Of a stretch of DNA of 64,000 nt, positions 20,084 to 28,489 are shown in pieces. Positions within the stretch are counted from its first letter, which is position 1; every line of letters begins with the position of its first letter. The DNA comes from Methanocaldococcus bathoardescens. Its GTDB lineage: Archaea; AGJL01; Methanococci; Methanococcales; Methanocaldococcaceae. Under the pieces are notes generated by a model. That model was not told where the DNA came from and did not search any database. It saw nothing but the letters and a program-made list of their open reading frames with translations. A program made the translations under genes and the position numbers. The stretch lies in the NCBI RefSeq assembly GCF_000739065.1, contig NZ_CP009149.1, positions 558,001-622,000 of the forward strand. The letters run 5' to 3'.

Positions 20084-21001
20084 TTATTCTTCCTCTTCTG
20101 AACTCATAAATTTATAGAAATCACCATATTCAACCTGGCTCTCTTTGCTCATTAACTTATCAATGGATTTCTTCATAATCATTGCATATAAGTCAATTAA
20201 ATCCCTATACTTAACTTCTGGCAACCCAGTATAGACAAATAGAACTTTCTTAAAGCCCCCTCTTGTAGCATTATCTACTAAATATAAAGATAAAGCTTCA
20301 GTTAATGGCTCAACTGGTGGATAACCCTTACCTAAAGGAACTCTCTTCTTATAGAATCTCTTTCCATATTTTAATCCTATAACTTGTGAAAACCTGAAGT
20401 GCATTATATAATCTGATATTTTATCCATTCTTTTGAAAATCTTTAGCCACCAATCAACATCTGCCTTTTCAGCTGCTTCATCTAAATCATCCTTCTCATA
20501 AACACCCAATTCATTTAAGAATATATTTTCTAACTGTAGTGATGGAATGATTTTTATATCTTCCTCTTTAGCTGCTTTTATTAACTCTTCAAGCTCATCT
20601 AATGTTCCAAACTCACCAATGTTTGTTGCTGGCTCTGGGGAGTAAATTATATCATTATTAACTTCACTGAATTTCTTTAAAACATCCAAGTGGTAGTTTA
20701 AATCATCCCCCACTCTTTTTCCAAGATGGTAGTTGTATATCTCAGCCCCACATAATGTAGCTTTTTCTATGGCTGAAAGGTGAGCTTTTAATCCTTTCTC
20801 TGATGATAAGCTGTAATATGGACCGTGAGCTAAGATTGAAGTGAAATATTCCTTACTTAACTTTTTATAACTCTCATAGTATCCAGATGGTAATCTTCTT
20901 GATAACACTGCTGGTGGAATTTCTGTAATTCTTGTCCCCAATAATGCTGCCTGTTTTAATGTTGATAAAGCATTATAGGTCCCCCACTCAAAGAGTATCA
21001 T
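20084..21001 (-). CDS. AP endonuclease family 2-like TIM-barrel protein
   Basis: A 305-residue protein with a xylose-isomerase/endonuclease IV-type barrel: GTRITEIPPAVL, SILAHGPYYSLSS, GAEIYNYHLGKRV, SPEPATNIGEFGTLDEL, IIPSLQLENIF and IMHFRFSQVIG. Several of the acidic/His metal ligands of true endonuclease IV appear replaced by other polar residues, so DNA repair activity is uncertain. The tail has an extension ending in SSEEEE. The start has GGTGAGAGA upstream. The two paralogous genes upstream on this strand may form one operon with it. Confidence 0.65.
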   Translation of the reverse strand: MILFEWGTYNALSTLKQAALLGTRITEIPPAVLSRRLPSGYYESYKKLSKEYFTSILAHGPYYSLSSEKGLKAHLSAIEKATLCGAEIYNYHLGKRVGDDLNYHLDVLKKFSEVNNDIIYSPEPATNIGEFGTLDELEELIKAAKEEDIKIIPSLQLENIFLNELGVYEKDDLDEAAEKADVDWWLKIFKRMDKISDYIMHFRFSQVIGLKYGKRFYKKRVPLGKGYPPVEPLTEALSLYLVDNATRGGFKKVLFVYTGLPEVKYRDLIDLYAMIMKKSIDKLMSKESQVEYGDFYKFMSSEEEE

Positions 21002-21024
21002 TCTCTCACCTAAAAAATATTTGC

Positions 21025-21564
21025 TTAATCAAATTTCTTTTTTAATGGCGCAAGATGTTCAGTTAAAGTATTTAGTATTAAATTTAGCTCTTCCCTAAGT
21101 GCCTCTCTATCAACACTGTCTGATTTTATATATTTTCCCAAGTCCTTTAAATATGTTGTTGTAGCGATTATATAATTTAAGTCATGATTTATCTTAACAT
21201 TTCCAAATAATGGGATTTTAAACATATTTTTAAAATCTGTTTGATACATAACTAAAACATCATTCGGCTCAACTAACTCATTTTTAATAACCGCCTCAAA
21301 GGTTAAAATTGCTTGAGAACCAATAATCTTTGATGTTATCCCTTCAACCTTTCTATCGACTATAACTCTAAGCATATATAACACAGGATGATTTATGAAT
21401 TTGAAGGTTAAGCTATGTGAGCTTTCTGTTGGTGAGTTAATTTCTATTAAAACTGCTCCTTTTTTATACATAAAGTTTATTAGCTCTCCAACAAATATTT
21501 CATCAATACTACTTGTAAATTCTCTTGAATGTGTTATTTTTTTAGCTAAATCAAAAATTCCCAT
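21025..21564 (-). CDS. Hypothetical protein, second of two tandem paralogues
   Basis: A 179-residue protein of unknown family. It aligns with its neighbour over most of the length: IDEIFVGELINFMYKKGAVLIEI here versus IDEVFLGAVITTLTDNGYVLMDI there, KIIGSQAILTFE versus KVIGARMFIEFS, and TTTYLKDLGKYI versus CATYLLINDYI. No catalytic motif, membrane segment or signal is seen; it looks like a mixed alpha/beta soluble protein. Its ATG overlaps the stop of the paralogue by one base, suggesting translational coupling. The TIM-barrel gene follows after 23 bases. Confidence 0.7.
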   Translation of the reverse strand: MGIFDLAKKITHSREFTSSIDEIFVGELINFMYKKGAVLIEINSPTESSHSLTFKFINHPVLYMLRVIVDRKVEGITSKIIGSQAILTFEAVIKNELVEPNDVLVMYQTDFKNMFKIPLFGNVKINHDLNYIIATTTYLKDLGKYIKSDSVDREALREELNLILNTLTEHLAPLKKKFD

Positions 21565-22109
21565 TATTCCACCTTTCTATATACTTCTAAATATTCAGAA
21601 AGTGCTGAAATTATTGTATTAATATCCTCATTTAATTTTTCCCAGTTAATTTCTAAGGTATCAAAGTCAATATAGTCATTTATTAATAAGTAAGTTGCAC
21701 AATTTACAAAAGTATAATAGCCGTCATAATCATATCTAATACTTCCAATATTTGAAAGTTTTTGAGATAAATAACCTTTCAATCCCAATCCAAATAAAGA
21801 TGGGGGAATTCCCTTAATCATAACTCCATAAGAAAACTCAATAAACATTCTTGCCCCTATAACTTTAACATCTGTTAAAGAATGAGGTAAAACTTCTGCT
21901 AAAATTTTAACTCTATCCCAGTTTTCCAAATGCTCAAATAAAAAATAATGGAAATTTCCATCTGAAGCAATATCCATCAATACATAGCCATTATCAGTTA
22001 GAGTTGTTATTACTGCCCCTAAGAAAACTTCATCTATGTATGTCGCTTTGTTCTCTTCATTTTTTAGTTTCCATCCTTTTTTAATCAATTCTACAAATTT
22101 TTTGTTCAT
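21564..22109 (-). CDS. Hypothetical protein, first of two tandem paralogues
   Basis: A 181-residue relative of the next gene, sharing length, predicted alternation of helices and strands and the blocks described there, but diverged (roughly a quarter to a third identical by eye). The start has TTGGTGATTTT directly upstream. It is the promoter-proximal gene of a three-gene minus-strand run ending in the TIM-barrel protein, divergent from the His/Asp-rich membrane protein gene. No function can be assigned. Confidence 0.7.
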   Translation of the reverse strand: MNKKFVELIKKGWKLKNEENKATYIDEVFLGAVITTLTDNGYVLMDIASDGNFHYFLFEHLENWDRVKILAEVLPHSLTDVKVIGARMFIEFSYGVMIKGIPPSLFGLGLKGYLSQKLSNIGSIRYDYDGYYTFVNCATYLLINDYIDFDTLEINWEKLNEDINTIISALSEYLEVYRKVE

Positions 22110-22202
22110 AAAATCACCAAATATTCCATATTAAAATTTTTAATAAGATAAAGTATATATAACAAGTTATTAAAATTATTAATTAGATATTTATTTCTAA
22201 GG

Positions 22203-22236
22203 TATATATAAATTTCTACTGTATTACTGTATAGAA
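22203..22236 (+). promoter_or_regulatory. TATA box and tandem ACTGTAT repeats
   Basis: TATATATAAA lies at about 22203-22212. Just downstream, two copies of ACTGTAT (22218-22224 and 22226-22232) are flanked by TTCTA and TAGAA, giving a partly symmetric block where transcription of the membrane protein/lipoprotein pair would begin. This position suits a repressor site. Recognition is by eye only. Confidence 0.4.
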
Positions 22237-22299
22237 GTTTAAAATTTTATATTAATTTTATGTATAAAAATTTATTTATTTAAATATATGGGTGAAAAA

Positions 22300-22761
22300 A
22301 TGAATTTGATATGGATTTTACTAATCGGATTTGCTGTTATAGGGCTGTTAATCCTCATGGCTGGGTTGTGGATAATAAAAAAAATTCTATTTCCAAAAAA
22401 GAAACCTAAGCCATACAAGATAAGAGGTGGTGGAAAAGCTCATCATATTGGTGGTGGAAGCTATGATGTTTATCACCATCATTATGTAACAAAGGATGTT
22501 TATGTTCATGATGATGATTACGATTACTATGATGAAAAAGACAGAAAGAGGGATGATAAAGATGATTTAATAGATAAAGCCGTTGCTTTTGGAACTGGAG
22601 CTATTGCTGGCTATGGAGTGGCAGAATATGGGGAAGAAATTAAAGAAGATATTGAGGAGATTATAAGAGAAGGAGAAGAAGTTGTTGATGATGTTGTAGA
22701 TGAGATTGAAGATGCTGTAGATGACTTCATAGATGACGATGGAAGTGATGATGACTACTAA
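22300..22761 (+). CDS. Single-span membrane protein with His- and Asp-rich tail
   Basis: The ATG preceded by GGTGAAAAA was chosen over one twelve bases upstream that lies in the ribosome site. The 153-residue protein has one hydrophobic helix (about residues 4-28), then KKKPKPYK, then a His/Gly/Tyr-rich stretch ([22 protein letters not shown]), a short Gly/Ala segment [10 protein letters not shown], and a very acidic C-terminus ending DDDGSDDDY. The His and Asp clusters suggest metal or cation binding at one membrane face. The segment from FGTGAIAG onward resembles the frameshifted gene near 28.3 kb. It precedes the large lipoprotein by 13 bases. Confidence 0.7.
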
Positions 22762-22774
22762 TAGGAGGGGGATT

Positions 22775-25700
22775 ATGAAAAAGATTGTTATTGCAATAAT
22801 ATTATCAATATCAATAGCAGTATTATTTGCTGGATGTGTTTCAGAAGAGGGTGGAAACTATGAAGAAACAAAAGGTGGTGAAAAAGTTATAAGCTCACTA
22901 TTGGATGTTGTTCCAAAATCTTCTGAAAAGGTAGTATATACTGAAACTGAAGGTTTCATTAATTTGTTAGGAGAAGATAGCAAAATTGTAAATGCCTATA
23001 AAAAGTTAATTGGAAAGTATGGTTTAAGTGTGGATGATATAGAATATACAATTCAGGCAGATAATGCCTACATATTAAAAGGTTATGGTTTAGATGAGTA
23101 TAAATTTATGGATGAATTGGGGCTAAATTATAAAGAAAAAAATTACAAAGGAGCAAATATACTTGTAAATGAAGATTATGGCTATGCTGTTGCAAAATAT
23201 AAAAATTATTTAATTCATGGAAATGTGGATGATGTAGAAAGAGTTATAGATACTTTAAGTGGAGATTATCCAGCAATAACAGAAAAAGATGAAATTAAAA
23301 AAATATTGGAGAATGTGGATGATGATTATGCAGTAGCAAACATTGAAGAAGGAAATAATGCCTATTACGGAGCTTTCATATATCCTAAAGGAAGGGATGT
23401 GAAGTTTGAAATAGTTATCGTCTTTGATAATATAGATGATGCAAAAGAACAATATCAGTATATGAAAGAAGAGTTAGAGAATGAAAAAAGTGATGGGAAT
23501 ATTAAAGATTATGACATAGAAAGAGATGGAAATGTAGTTGTAGCCGATATCATAATGAGTAAAGATGAGTTTTTAGGAGAGTATGCTGATTCCTTAGGAT
23601 TAAATTTAGGAGATATTGAAAATAATGCTGAAAATCAATATGAACAAACATACCAAAATGAAGAAAATGAAAAAGAGGAATATAAGAATAAAAATACCGA
23701 GAAAGTTAATGTTGGAGAGCCATTTAATTTAATCCCTTCAGTATTCTGGGCAAGTTACGTTGATGTAGATAAATTTAGTAATGTGGTTAAAGGAGGATAT
23801 GGTTATGAAAAACTTAAAGATGTTTTAAAATGCTATGGGCTAACACCAGATGATATTGAGTTTTATTTGAGCATAGCACCTGCCGCAAATGTAATAAAAA
23901 CTAATAAACTTAATGCTTATGATTACTTAAAAAGATTGGGATGTGAGTATAAAGAAGAAAATTACAAAGGGGCTACTTTATTAATATACAAATCACCATT
24001 CTCAGCTTTGGATGAAAATGAAGCAGTTACCAACTATAGAGGATACTTCATATTTGGGTTGGAAGATAATGTAAAAAATATAATAGATGCCATAAATGGA
24101 GAAACTTCTTTGATGATTGAGAATGATAATATAAAAGAGATTATAAGTGAGATATCAAAAGGATACTTTGCGTTTAAGCTATATGATTTATTTGACTCCG
24201 ATGGAGGAGAGTTTTACTATGAAGATGGAAATGATGTTGTAATTAAAGGACTCTGGATAGCTATGGATGAAGATTATGCAAATAAAAGAGCAAACATTAT
24301 AAAAGAAGATTATGAAAGCAATGGATATAATGATTATAATGTAAAAGTTGAAGGAAATAGAGTTATCTCAGAGCTTAGAATTAGTAAGGAAGAATTTGCT
24401 GATTATTATGGAGATGAACTTGCAGATGTTCATTGGTTAGGGTTGCATGAACTTGAAAACTGTAAGAGCAGTGCTGAAACTGAAGAATTGGCTAATAATG
24501 AAGAACAAGCCAATATAGAACAGCAGATAGAAGAACAACAAACCAACATGGAAGAACAGAAAGAACAGCAGTTCGAAAATAAAGAAACTAATGTTTATGA
24601 ACTACCATTAACATGGAAAGAAGTTGAAGTTGCAGGAATGGATGGAGTTATGTTTGACTTTGGAAGTAAAAAAGTAACTTTTAATGATATATATGAATAC
24701 AGCCATTATACATCTGATTTTGAAGATCCAATAATAATTGATGGAAATAGATTATGGAGTTTTGGAGATTTTGGAGGAATCTATGGAAATTACTATATCT
24801 GGAAAAGTGTTGATGAAGGATGGGGATTTGATGCTGAAGTTGATGATATATACTTAGCAGAGATGCCTTATAATGTAAAGGCAATGTGTTATGATATGTA
24901 TGGAGCAGGGTGGTTTATAGCAGATGATAATGGGAAAATACATCATGTAATCTTTGAGGAATACAATGAAACAACAGATAAAACTGGAAATGTAAAAATA
25001 TACTTATTAAAACCAAAAGTTGATGTTGTAGTAGCAAACTTAGATGTTGATGAATTGATGGCTGGAATCTCTAACAACGGAAAAAATTATAAGATTGTCT
25101 TAGGTTGGAAAGGAAACAAACTCTATTTAATAACAATGGATGCTAAAAAGTTTGAGGATTGGGCTTATAACATCCAATATACAAAAGGATATTCAGAACC
25201 ATTTCCAAATGTAAAAATTAAGGAGTTTGATTTTGATGGCAATATAATAGATGCAAGAGGAGAATATGGTGCAGGAAACTATCAAAATTATATAGTTGTG
25301 GCAACAAATAATGGACTTTATATAATAACGGTTGAAAATAGAGAACCAGATGAGTTCAAAATAACTGATGCGTTAAAAACAAACATAAAGGTTTATGCCT
25401 TTGATGTATATTCAGGAAAGTTGGCTTGCTCAGATGGAAATAATGTATATTATACCGACATTAAAAGCAGATACGAATCAGAAAATTCAGACAGATATGT
25501 TTATTACTTTGGAAGAAACTATGAAGGGGCTTTATCTTTAAGTGGAGTAACTGGATTGTCAATAACAACAAACTATAATGAATTTGGAACGCAGTTAAAG
25601 GTCGCTGGAAATGGATATATTAAAACATACAACTTCGAATTTGAATCAAAAAAAGATGCTGAAGGAAACTACCTGTATGATGAAAACGGCGACCCAATAT

Positions 25701-25894
25701 ACATAGTCAAATTTGTGCCAAAGATTGTATATTATGATGGTGAGGTTTATGACAAATACTATGATATAAATGTTCCATTTGCTGGAAAGTATATATATAG
25801 AGAAGATTGGGGAAATTCAAAAAGTGGTAGAGTAGCATTTAGAGTTTATACAACCGATAACAAACTTTATCTATTTGGAACTGCATGGGGATAA
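22775..25894 (+). CDS. Very large repeat-containing lipoprotein
   Basis: The start with GGAGGGGGATT upstream gives a 1039-residue protein with a lipoprotein signal (MKKIVIAIILSISIAVLFAGC, Cys 21). About residues 38-280 and 310-565 are two copies of one domain; shared blocks are YGLSVDDIEYTI/YGLTPDDIEFYL, LNYKEKNYKGANILV/CEYKEENYKGATLLI and the dyads MSKDEFLGEY/ISKEEFADYY. A Gln/Glu-rich linker follows (about 568-605), then a 430-residue C-terminal region with repeated YDMYGAGWFIADDNGKIHH-like strands, suggestive of a beta-propeller. Function unknown; an extracellular sensor or binding role is inference. Cotranscribed with the preceding membrane protein. Confidence 0.75.
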   Translation: MKKIVIAIILSISIAVLFAGCVSEEGGNYEETKGGEKVISSLLDVVPKSSEKVVYTETEGFINLLGEDSKIVNAYKKLIGKYGLSVDDIEYTIQADNAYILKGYGLDEYKFMDELGLNYKEKNYKGANILVNEDYGYAVAKYKNYLIHGNVDDVERVIDTLSGDYPAITEKDEIKKILENVDDDYAVANIEEGNNAYYGAFIYPKGRDVKFEIVIVFDNIDDAKEQYQYMKEELENEKSDGNIKDYDIERDGNVVVADIIMSKDEFLGEYADSLGLNLGDIENNAENQYEQTYQNEENEKEEYKNKNTEKVNVGEPFNLIPSVFWASYVDVDKFSNVVKGGYGYEKLKDVLKCYGLTPDDIEFYLSIAPAANVIKTNKLNAYDYLKRLGCEYKEENYKGATLLIYKSPFSALDENEAVTNYRGYFIFGLEDNVKNIIDAINGETSLMIENDNIKEIISEISKGYFAFKLYDLFDSDGGEFYYEDGNDVVIKGLWIAMDEDYANKRANIIKEDYESNGYNDYNVKVEGNRVISELRISKEEFADYYGDELADVHWLGLHELENCKSSAETEELANNEEQANIEQQIEEQQTNMEEQKEQQFENKETNVYELPLTWKEVEVAGMDGVMFDFGSKKVTFNDIYEYSHYTSDFEDPIIIDGNRLWSFGDFGGIYGNYYIWKSVDEGWGFDAEVDDIYLAEMPYNVKAMCYDMYGAGWFIADDNGKIHHVIFEEYNETTDKTGNVKIYLLKPKVDVVVANLDVDELMAGISNNGKNYKIVLGWKGNKLYLITMDAKKFEDWAYNIQYTKGYSEPFPNVKIKEFDFDGNIIDARGEYGAGNYQNYIVVATNNGLYIITVENREPDEFKITDALKTNIKVYAFDVYSGKLACSDGNNVYYTDIKSRYESENSDRYVYYFGRNYEGALSLSGVTGLSITTNYNEFGTQLKVAGNGYIKTYNFEFESKKDAEGNYLYDENGDPIYIVKFVPKIVYYDGEVYDKYYDINVPFAGKYIYREDWGNSKSGRVAFRVYTTDNKLYLFGTAWG

Positions 25895-25984
25895 ATTCCA
25901 CTTTATAAATCTTTTTATATTAACCAAACAATTATATACAATCAAAACATAATAACTAAAATATACCAAAATTTTGGTGGGATT

Positions 25985-26380
25985 ATGAAATTCAAAAGCG
26001 ATATTATGCTAAAGCCTATAATAATTGGGGGAGTTATTGGAGGAATTTTGGGTTCTATTTGTAATTGTTGTTGTATTATGAATCTTGTTGCAGGGGCAAT
26101 AACCGCACACTTTATAAAAGAATCAGGAGCTATGTTAGATACTGAAAGTTACGCGTTAGCAGGAGGAATTAGTGGAGCAATTGCAGGAGTCATAAGCGGA
26201 ATATTGGGAACAATATTTGCAATGTTTATAAATATTCCATTTGCAAGTAGTTCAGAAGAAATGATGGCTTCAATGGGTTTAACAATGATTAGTGGAGTAT
26301 TGAGCATAATATTTGGCATAATTTTTGGAGCAATTATGGGAGCTGTTGGAGCTATATTGTATCTAAAAGTTAAAGAGTAA
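25985..26380 (+). CDS. Small Gly/Ala-rich membrane protein
   Basis: A 131-residue protein with about four hydrophobic segments rich in Gly, Ala and Ile (PIIIGGVIGGILGSICNCCCIMN, YALAGGISGAIAGVISGILG, ISGVLSIIFGIIFGAIMG). The CNCCC motif in the first segment is unusual. It resembles DUF5518-like archaeal membrane proteins, without certainty. The start follows TTTTGGTGGGATT. The next membrane gene begins ten bases after its stop. Confidence 0.65.
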   Translation: MKFKSDIMLKPIIIGGVIGGILGSICNCCCIMNLVAGAITAHFIKESGAMLDTESYALAGGISGAIAGVISGILGTIFAMFINIPFASSSEEMMASMGLTMISGVLSIIFGIIFGAIMGAVGAILYLKVKE

Positions 26381-26390
26381 GGGATTAATT

Positions 26391-26867
26391 ATGAAAAAAT
26401 ACTACATTATTGGGTTAATAATTTTTTCTATTTTTTATCTTGGTTTATTTTTAGCACCATACTCTGCTTACTTAGGGGAAAGTTCAAATTTTTGGAATTT
26501 TGTATCTTTTATACTCTACACAATATATTCAACAATATGTCATCAAATGCCGCAAAGAAGTTACTTTATTTTTGAACATAAAATGGCGGTTTGTGCAAGA
26601 TGCTTTGGGATTTATACAGGCTTTTTAATTGGAATGTTTATTTACCCATTTTTAAAAAAATTAAACGACTTTAAAACTCCAAATAAATGGTATTTAATAA
26701 TTGCATTAACACCGTTGGTAGTTGATGGTACTACCCAACTAATTGGATTGAGAGAGAGTTTTAATGAATTAAGGTTTGTAACTGGCTTTATTGCTGGATT
26801 TGTGGGAGTTTTTTATATTTTACCAACATTTTTAGAAGCAATATATAAATATAACCACAAAAAATAA
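26391..26867 (+). CDS. DUF2085 membrane protein
   Basis: A 158-residue protein with four membrane segments and the family signature CHQMPQRSYFIFEHKMAVCARCFGIYTGFLIG, in which His and Cys residues could bind metal. A later VVDGTTQLIGLRES motif is also typical of DUF2085. Biochemical role unknown. Likely cotranscribed with the preceding small membrane protein. Confidence 0.8.
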   Translation: MKKYYIIGLIIFSIFYLGLFLAPYSAYLGESSNFWNFVSFILYTIYSTICHQMPQRSYFIFEHKMAVCARCFGIYTGFLIGMFIYPFLKKLNDFKTPNKWYLIIALTPLVVDGTTQLIGLRESFNELRFVTGFIAGFVGVFYILPTFLEAIYKYNHKK

Positions 26868-26925
26868 TCGTAAAAATGCAAATTTTTGATAGAATATAAT
26901 TTTGCAATCTTAGAGAGGGATAATA

Positions 26926-28203
26926 ATGATAATCAAAAAAATTAAGGAATTAACAAAAGAAGAGGAAGAAAAAATAATTAATAGGAATAAAGCTAACTTT
27001 GAGGAAATATTGCCAACAGTGATGGAGATTTTGAAAGACGTTAAAGAAAAGGGGGATGAAGCATTAAAATATTACACAAAAAAGTTTGATGGTGTAGAAA
27101 TAGAAGATTTTAAAGTTACAGAAGAAGAAATAGAGGAGGCATATAACTCAGTAGATTACAAAATTATTGAGGCAATAGAAAAAGCTAAGGAAAACATTTA
27201 TTTCTTCCACAAAAAGCAAATGGAGCAAATAAAAGATTTAAATGTTAAAAATAATGGAATAATTTTAGGACAAGTTGTTAGAGCAATAGAAAAAGTTGGA
27301 TGCTATGTTCCTGGAGGAAGGGCTTTCTATCCTTCAACTGTTTTAATGACAACAATCCCTGCAAAAGTAGCTGGGTGTAGAGAGATATATATAACTTCCC
27401 CACCAACAAAAGAAGGGAAAGGAAATCCTGCCACATTAATAGCAGGAGATATTGTTGGAGTTTCAGCTATTTATAAAGTTGGAGGAGTTCAGGCTATAGG
27501 GGCTTTAGCTTATGGAACAGAAACAATTCCAAAGGTTGATATTATTGTAGGGCCTGGAAATATATATGTAACAACAGCCAAAAAAATAGTTTATGGAGAA
27601 GTTGCTATAGATTTCTTAGCAGGTCCTTCAGAGGTTTTAATTATTGCTGATGAAACAGCAGATTCAGAGTTTGTTGCTTTAGACTTTATTGCTCAAGCTG
27701 AACACGACCCTAATGCCTCTTGCATAATAACAACAACATCTGAAAAGAAAGCAGAGGAAATTAAAAATAAAATATTTGATGAGATAGAAAAAGCTGAAAG
27801 AAAAGAGATTATTTTAAAAGCCTTAGAATACTCTGCCATATTAATTGGTGATTTAGAAGAGTGTATTGAATTCTCAAATAAATACGCCCCAGAACATTTG
27901 GAAATATTAACCAAAAACCCAGAAGAAGTTTTAAATAAAATTAAACATGCTGGAAGTGTATTTTTAGGAGAGTATAGCCCAGTTCCTGTTGGAGATTATG
28001 CTTCTGGGACTAATCATGTTTTACCAACTTCACAATTTGCAAGAATGAGTTCTGGTTTGAATGTGGAGACATTTTTAAAGAAAATAACATTCCAAAAATT
28101 GGATAAAGAAAGCTTAAAAAATATTGCTGATATTGTTATAACATTAGCTGAAGCTGAAGGGTTGTTTGGACATGCTGAAGCCGTCAGAAGAAGACTAAAA
28201 TAA
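26926..28203 (+). CDS. hisD: Histidinol dehydrogenase
   Basis: A 425-residue enzyme performing the last two steps of histidine synthesis, histidinol to histidine with two NAD. Family blocks include VGCYVPGGRAFYPSTVLMT, VGGVQAIGALAYGTETIP, KVDIIVGPGNIYVTTAKK, the metal and catalytic QAEHDP, and APEHLEI followed by GSVFLGEYSPVPVGDYASGTNH. All key His and Glu residues are seen. No other his genes are adjacent. GAGAGGGAT precedes the start. Confidence 0.97.
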   Translation: MIIKKIKELTKEEEEKIINRNKANFEEILPTVMEILKDVKEKGDEALKYYTKKFDGVEIEDFKVTEEEIEEAYNSVDYKIIEAIEKAKENIYFFHKKQMEQIKDLNVKNNGIILGQVVRAIEKVGCYVPGGRAFYPSTVLMTTIPAKVAGCREIYITSPPTKEGKGNPATLIAGDIVGVSAIYKVGGVQAIGALAYGTETIPKVDIIVGPGNIYVTTAKKIVYGEVAIDFLAGPSEVLIIADETADSEFVALDFIAQAEHDPNASCIITTTSEKKAEEIKNKIFDEIEKAERKEIILKALEYSAILIGDLEECIEFSNKYAPEHLEILTKNPEEVLNKIKHAGSVFLGEYSPVPVGDYASGTNHVLPTSQFARMSSGLNVETFLKKITFQKLDKESLKNIADIVITLAEAEGLFGHAEAVRRRLK

Positions 28204-28220: not shown

Positions 28221-28489
28221 ATGACATCATTAATCTTATTAATTTTATTTGAAAGAAGGAAACTGTAAATAGAACAGCTAATAGAACAGTTGTGGTTGAA
28301 AGAGATAACAACCTATTGGGAACTGCCGCAGCTGTTGCTGGTGGAGTTATAGCTGGAGAGCTAATAGCTGATGCTATAGATGGTATGGTAGAGGGAGATA
28401 TTGGAGAAAACATAGAAGAAGGAATAGAAAATGTTAGTGAAACAATAACTGATGCTGTTGATGATTTCACTGACTTTGGAGGATTTTAA
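28221..28489 (+). pseudogene. Frameshifted small Gly/Ala-rich membrane protein gene
   Basis: A good ribosome site (GTGATGGTT) precedes ATG 28221, which opens MTSLILLILFERRKL and stops at a TAA about 28266. The -1 frame continues ETVNRTANRTVVVERDNN, then LLGTAAAVAGGVIAGELIADA and an acidic C-terminus, DAVDDFTDFGGF, stopping at 28489. Joining them across GAAAGAAGGAAAC gives one roughly 89-residue protein with an N-terminal hydrophobic segment. A one-base deletion, a sequencing error or a -1 ribosomal shift would each explain it. The C-terminal part could also start at a GTG at 28292, but without a ribosome site. Confidence 0.55.

Follow-up and report, generated by a model that had tools for sequence, protein, structure and literature searches.

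TP0453 of Treponema pallidum, a lipoprotein of 287 residues that adopts an alpha/beta/alpha fold, has been proposed to act as a carrier of lipids and glycolipids (PMC5421087). This lipoprotein of similar size (PDB 3K8G, 3K8H and 3K8J) appears to resemble, in overall fold, the predicted first domain of a much longer archaeal lipoprotein, referred to here as Lipo. Within Methanocaldococcales, the same type of domain, designated D, is found in single-domain lipoproteins such as G008:C1:564880-565629 and G016:C18:25589-26281, which also share the N-terminal design of Lipo. These proteins contain one D domain, lack the linker and C-terminal region of Lipo and, at the loci that were read, do not have the neighbours of Lipo described below (MemP, A181 and B179).

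The window analysed here is a 64,000-nucleotide stretch of Methanocaldococcus bathoardescens DNA, taken from a genome (G000) that consists of a single contig of 1,607,556 bases. It was compared with a genus sample of 14 genomes and a wider sample of 394 genomes. The window contains a real, conserved and patchily distributed cassette of four genes arranged around a two-domain archaeal lipoprotein, and the same cassette is present in a second genome, G008. The features of the locus are the following.

21002..26925, no strand: 5.9-kb segment between the endonuclease IV gene and hisD, missing at this site in eight relatives
21025..21564, minus strand: B179, 179 residues, 84% identical and syntenic in G008
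21564..22109, minus strand: A181, 181 residues, 88% identical and syntenic in G008, transcribed away from MemP
22110..22299, no strand: divergent intergenic region with a TATA-like box and ACTGTAT copies
22300..22761, plus strand: MemP, 153 residues, 68% identical in G008
22775..25894, plus strand: Lipo, open reading frame of a 1039-residue lipoprotein, 68% identical in G008
22895..23620, plus strand: Lipo domain D1, alpha/beta, with a TP0453-like predicted fold
23708..24454, plus strand: Lipo domain D2, homologous to D1
24464..24583, plus strand: Gln/Glu-rich linker of Lipo, seen in the translation and its repeats
24584..25891, plus strand: C-terminal region of Lipo, 436 residues, strand-rich

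The order of these genes, with B179 and A181 on the minus strand and MemP and Lipo on the plus strand, is identical in G000 and G008. Lipo and full-length MemP occur in the same two of the 14 genus genomes and are adjacent in both, which agrees with the co-occurrence anticipated by an earlier, sequence-only reading of this DNA, the number of carriers being two. Both open reading frames that this reading had called genes are confirmed: their products have been kept as proteins at 68% identity in the second genome and are therefore not chance reading frames. The same reading had confined the unit to MemP and Lipo; their co-occurrence held, but the boundaries did not, because the divergent paralogous pair at 21025-22109 is part of the same conserved block. 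A181 and B179 are 23% identical to each other (E 2e-9) and, on comparison, unrelated to the D domain. Three genomes of the genus carry them, including G011, which has neither MemP nor Lipo, and among the 394 genomes they were found only in G000, G008 and G011, apart from one weak partial match. The A181/B179-like pair of G011 (L071, 7701-8725) adjoins two potassium-channel-like genes. The syntenic genes in M. jannaschii may be MJ1279-MJ1282.

Lipo starts 14 bases past the stop codon of MemP, behind an AGGAGG motif, and so the two genes likely form one operon. The divergent intergenic region between A181 and MemP is conserved between G000 and G008, as is an archaeal TATA-like box at about 22203-22210 on the plus strand. 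Tandem ACTGTAT copies at 22218 and 22226 had been noted in a shared promoter region. They are present as two copies only, but a functional repeat is not borne out, since only the first copy is kept in G008; some tandem 7-mer arises in about 3.5% of shuffled intergenic sequences, which makes the repeat alone weak evidence.

Searches of Pfam, NCBIfam, PHROGs, PADLOC and PDB sequences returned no family for MemP, Lipo, A181 or B179. Matches to Tetraspanin, EbpS and AAA_8 lay far under the cut-off and were dismissed, and a weak PDB match, 5vj4 (Borrelia turicatae BTA121), was set aside as chance. Relatives were likewise not found in genome-contig, viral-contig or plasmid (by protein) collections, from which the records closest to the window's genome were possibly excluded.

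The genomic sites of the cassette differ between its two carriers. In eight relatives the endonuclease IV gene lies next to hisD, at a distance of about 75-310 bases, and in the window this site holds a 5.9-kb insert with B179, A181, MemP, Lipo, a 131-residue membrane protein and a DUF2085 protein. The last two (25985-26867, plus strand) belong to the same insertion as the cassette; the membrane protein represents a multi-copy family in Methanocaldococcales with a sub-threshold match to DUF5518, and the DUF2085 gene of G008 (79% identical) is located at another site, beside a related membrane protein. The insertion (edges at 21001-21025 and 26868-26926) has taken the place of the divergent promoter region, with its TATA element, that separates endonuclease IV from hisD in relatives. 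The endonuclease IV gene here follows A181-B179 by 23 bases, and hisD follows the DUF2085 gene. In G008, the cassette lies upstream of leuD/ilvD, where seven other genomes have a 405-residue threonine-synthase-like gene. That gene is carried elsewhere in G008 (L051), which suggests that a rearrangement rather than a simple insertion may have occurred there.

These sites bear on whether the four genes belong together at all. They could be mere neighbours, an ordinary lipoprotein operon of two genes lying next to an A/B operon with no connection to it, both retained in two close relatives by shared descent, as the confinement of the whole set to two genomes and the presence of A/B alone in G011 would allow. 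However, order, orientation and intergenic region are kept at two different sites, and a set that is intact at both has on at least one occasion acted as a unit, so that simple co-retention is judged improbable.

Divergence between G000 and G008 gives a further view of the cassette's history. The dS of its four genes is 0.91-1.52, compared with 0.33-1.02 for 17 other gene pairs, and that of the DUF2085 pair, a gene which came with the insertion, is 1.10. Values close to or beyond the upper end of the comparison range fit horizontal exchange or old divergence, dS near 1 being imprecise; composition gives no signal of foreign origin (cassette GC 29.8% versus 30.8%). A cassette for defence or exclusion, directed against viruses or competing strains, would account for the patchiness and the differing sites, and presence in two of 14 genomes at different loci, with such high dS values, is in line with it. 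Nevertheless, PADLOC gave no match for any member at E 0.1, viral or plasmid relatives were not found in the collection searches and the cassette has no mobile-element genes, so a defensive role is considered very unlikely. At the protein level, dN/dS is 0.13 for D1, 0.28 for D2, the fastest of the three Lipo domains, and 0.20 for the C-terminal region, next to 0.16 for MemP, 0.04 for A181, 0.10 for B179 and 0.02-0.16 for other genes. The fastest change in a surface protein is as expected when such a protein meets a variable environment and is not evidence of positive selection.

The architecture of Lipo agrees in most respects with what had been described from the sequence. Its signal peptide is the sole hydrophobic segment and carries a lipobox-like FAGC (residues 18-21, the last being Cys21), identical in G008, and these two elements support its assignment as a surface lipoprotein. 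The duplication of about 240 residues is also substantiated (D1 and D2 are 32% identical over 207 residues, E 1.4e-26), as are the Gln/Glu linker, at about residues 564-603, and the acidic character of the protein (pI 4.4). No internal repeat was detected within D by sequence. The C-terminal region is strand-rich; self-comparison revealed no significant internal repeat in it, and a profile search of this phylum's sample found no homologue beyond the two lipoproteins. It contains a single Asp-box-like motif, which is not conserved in the G008 counterpart. The beta-propeller suggested for this region by the sequence-only reading, a fold built of repeated four-stranded blades, is a candidate only.

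The statement that the lipoprotein has no recognisable family was overturned by profile searches, which place the D domain in a broad archaeal lipoprotein family. A profile of four sequences, built solely from D1 and D2 of the two lipoproteins, matches single-domain lipoproteins in G001, G004, G008, G012 and G016 with E of 3e-8 to 2e-14, and pairwise BLAST between D and its relatives reaches E down to 6e-11. A wider profile extends to G131, G214 and, more weakly, G263, which represent other archaeal families, with E of 1e-16 or better for all relatives except G263 (3.6e-5). The single-domain relatives are about 260-325 residues long, and most have a lipobox (SGC or CGC). Two D-domain lipoproteins of 305 and 262 residues, encoded on the minus strand in G001 (L095, 1183-2100) and G003 (L096, 1183-1971), surfaced solely via a DUF3352 search, indicating that the D profile captures only part of the family.

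Structure prediction, which had been proposed together with a fold search for each domain, was productive for D1 but not for the C-terminal region, whose single-sequence model is uninterpretable (pLDDT 35.5). The AlphaFold2 model of D1, obtained with D1 and D2 alone as input, is alpha/beta, with a pLDDT of 80.8 and a pTM of 0.75, the five models spreading from 57 to 81. In a Foldseek search of the PDB with D1, three matches had E below 0.001, each of them TP0453 (best E 3.9e-7, probability 1.00, rmsd 7.5 and a borderline TM of 0.51), and the model had no significant viral match. No TP0453 chain appeared in PDB sequence searches with the D profile or a single domain. Given this and the TM of 0.51, D1 is predicted to resemble TP0453 in fold only.

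This resemblance underlies the main rival to surface attachment and ligand binding, namely that D1 and D2 bind lipid or glycolipid and shuttle it between the membrane and the envelope in the manner suggested for TP0453. The sole strong fold match being a proposed lipid and glycolipid carrier (PMC5421087) speaks for such a role, as does the position of the D domain straight after the lipid anchor. However, the majority of the helices predicted in D1 are acidic, have poor amphipathic scores and appear unlike the membrane-inserting type in the comparison with TP0453; one of the seven passes the amphipathic discrimination score, and lipid-contacting scores are confined to about residues 28-47. Methanocaldococcus is not known to have an outer membrane, which is a further point against a shuttle. 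A lipid carrier is therefore regarded as unlikely, and attachment to the surface is retained as the favoured reading of D1 and D2.

MemP, the second member of the likely operon, had been described as a His/Asp-rich protein with a membrane span, and it does have one transmembrane segment, near the N-terminus. Its gene was correctly recognised, but the start was probably set 12 bases too far upstream, at 22288; 22300 is the better choice, as this is where the G008 orthologue starts and GGTGA lies just upstream of that ATG. The transmembrane helix is followed by a basic stretch, a conserved segment of 16 residues, a Gly/Ala-rich segment and an acidic tail. The 16-residue segment, completely identical between G000 and G008, is the best candidate for a functional site. 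There is no charge before the helix, and beyond it the 16-residue stretch K27-R42 includes eight Lys/Arg. According to the positive-inside rule, the positively charged flank of a transmembrane segment lies on the cytoplasmic side, and the His/Asp-rich tail of MemP is accordingly predicted to be cytoplasmic. In relatives, a small protein encoded downstream of hisD has the same layout of transmembrane segment, Gly-rich segment and acidic tail. It is 44% identical to the C-terminal part of MemP over 64 residues, a likeness resting on low-complexity acidic sequence, and lacks the His-rich insert of MemP. Its gene is intact downstream of hisD in G001, G006, G007 and G008, and a remnant, with the transmembrane part severed by an in-frame stop, is present in the window (28253-28474, plus strand).

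The orientation of MemP is also relevant to metal sensing or capture by MemP and Lipo, which had been suggested to take place on the outer face. The identical 16-residue stretch is a plausible metal site, yet by the positive-inside rule it would be cytoplasmic. Lipo, moreover, is poor in candidate ligands: its 1039 residues include 6 His and 6 Cys, motifs of the DxDxD or EF-hand-like kind are absent, and metal-transport genes are missing among the neighbours. Outer-face metal capture is thus weakly founded, and metal handling by the two proteins is considered quite unlikely.

The favoured reading, held with about even confidence, is that the locus is a lineage-restricted accessory cassette of four genes that serves a cell-surface lipoprotein. 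The signal peptide would export Lipo, and Cys21 would carry its lipid anchor. D1 and D2, with their TP0453/DUF3352-like alpha/beta fold, would rest on the outer face of the membrane, and the Glu/Gln linker would extend the strand-rich C-terminal region, which probably serves as a head for binding some external ligand or surface. MemP, encoded in the same operon, would cross the membrane once and keep its His/Asp tail in the cytoplasm, and is a possible inner partner of Lipo. A181 and B179 probably reside in the cytoplasm, where they might work together with MemP. Contact between MemP and Lipo and the role of A/B are suggested by synteny, in two genomes only, and the occurrence of A/B without MemP and Lipo in G011 counts against a four-part mechanism. 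A bolder version is doubtful: an undescribed archaeal envelope system, in which a lipoprotein with two TP0453-like domains and a predicted ligand-binding head would be coupled by MemP to cytoplasmic A181 and B179, and which would be exchanged between hyperthermophilic methanogens as a module.

Compared with known proteins, Lipo differs from TP0453 in having two such domains instead of one, D1 being 14% identical to TP0453. The comparison with DUF3352 (Pfam PF11832) is of another kind. D relatives match the same stretch of its model, within positions 137-216 of 536, with a best E of 1.8e-5, but all these matches remain under the curated cut-off (best 24.0 versus 26.8 bits). Whole Lipo had no DUF3352 match in the Pfam search, and none of the 394 genomes has a match above the cut-off. 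By these profile matches, the D domain is distantly related to DUF3352 and not a member of it. A D family described in this way unites uncharacterised lipoproteins of Methanocaldococcales and other archaeal families, and together with the TP0453 fold match it opens a class of surface proteins to a defined assay, that of lipid or membrane binding. The cassette adds a further case of module shuffling of fast-evolving surface genes in hyperthermophilic methanogens, and Lipo combines domains of a broad, uncharacterised archaeal family in a new architecture rather than representing a new kind of system.
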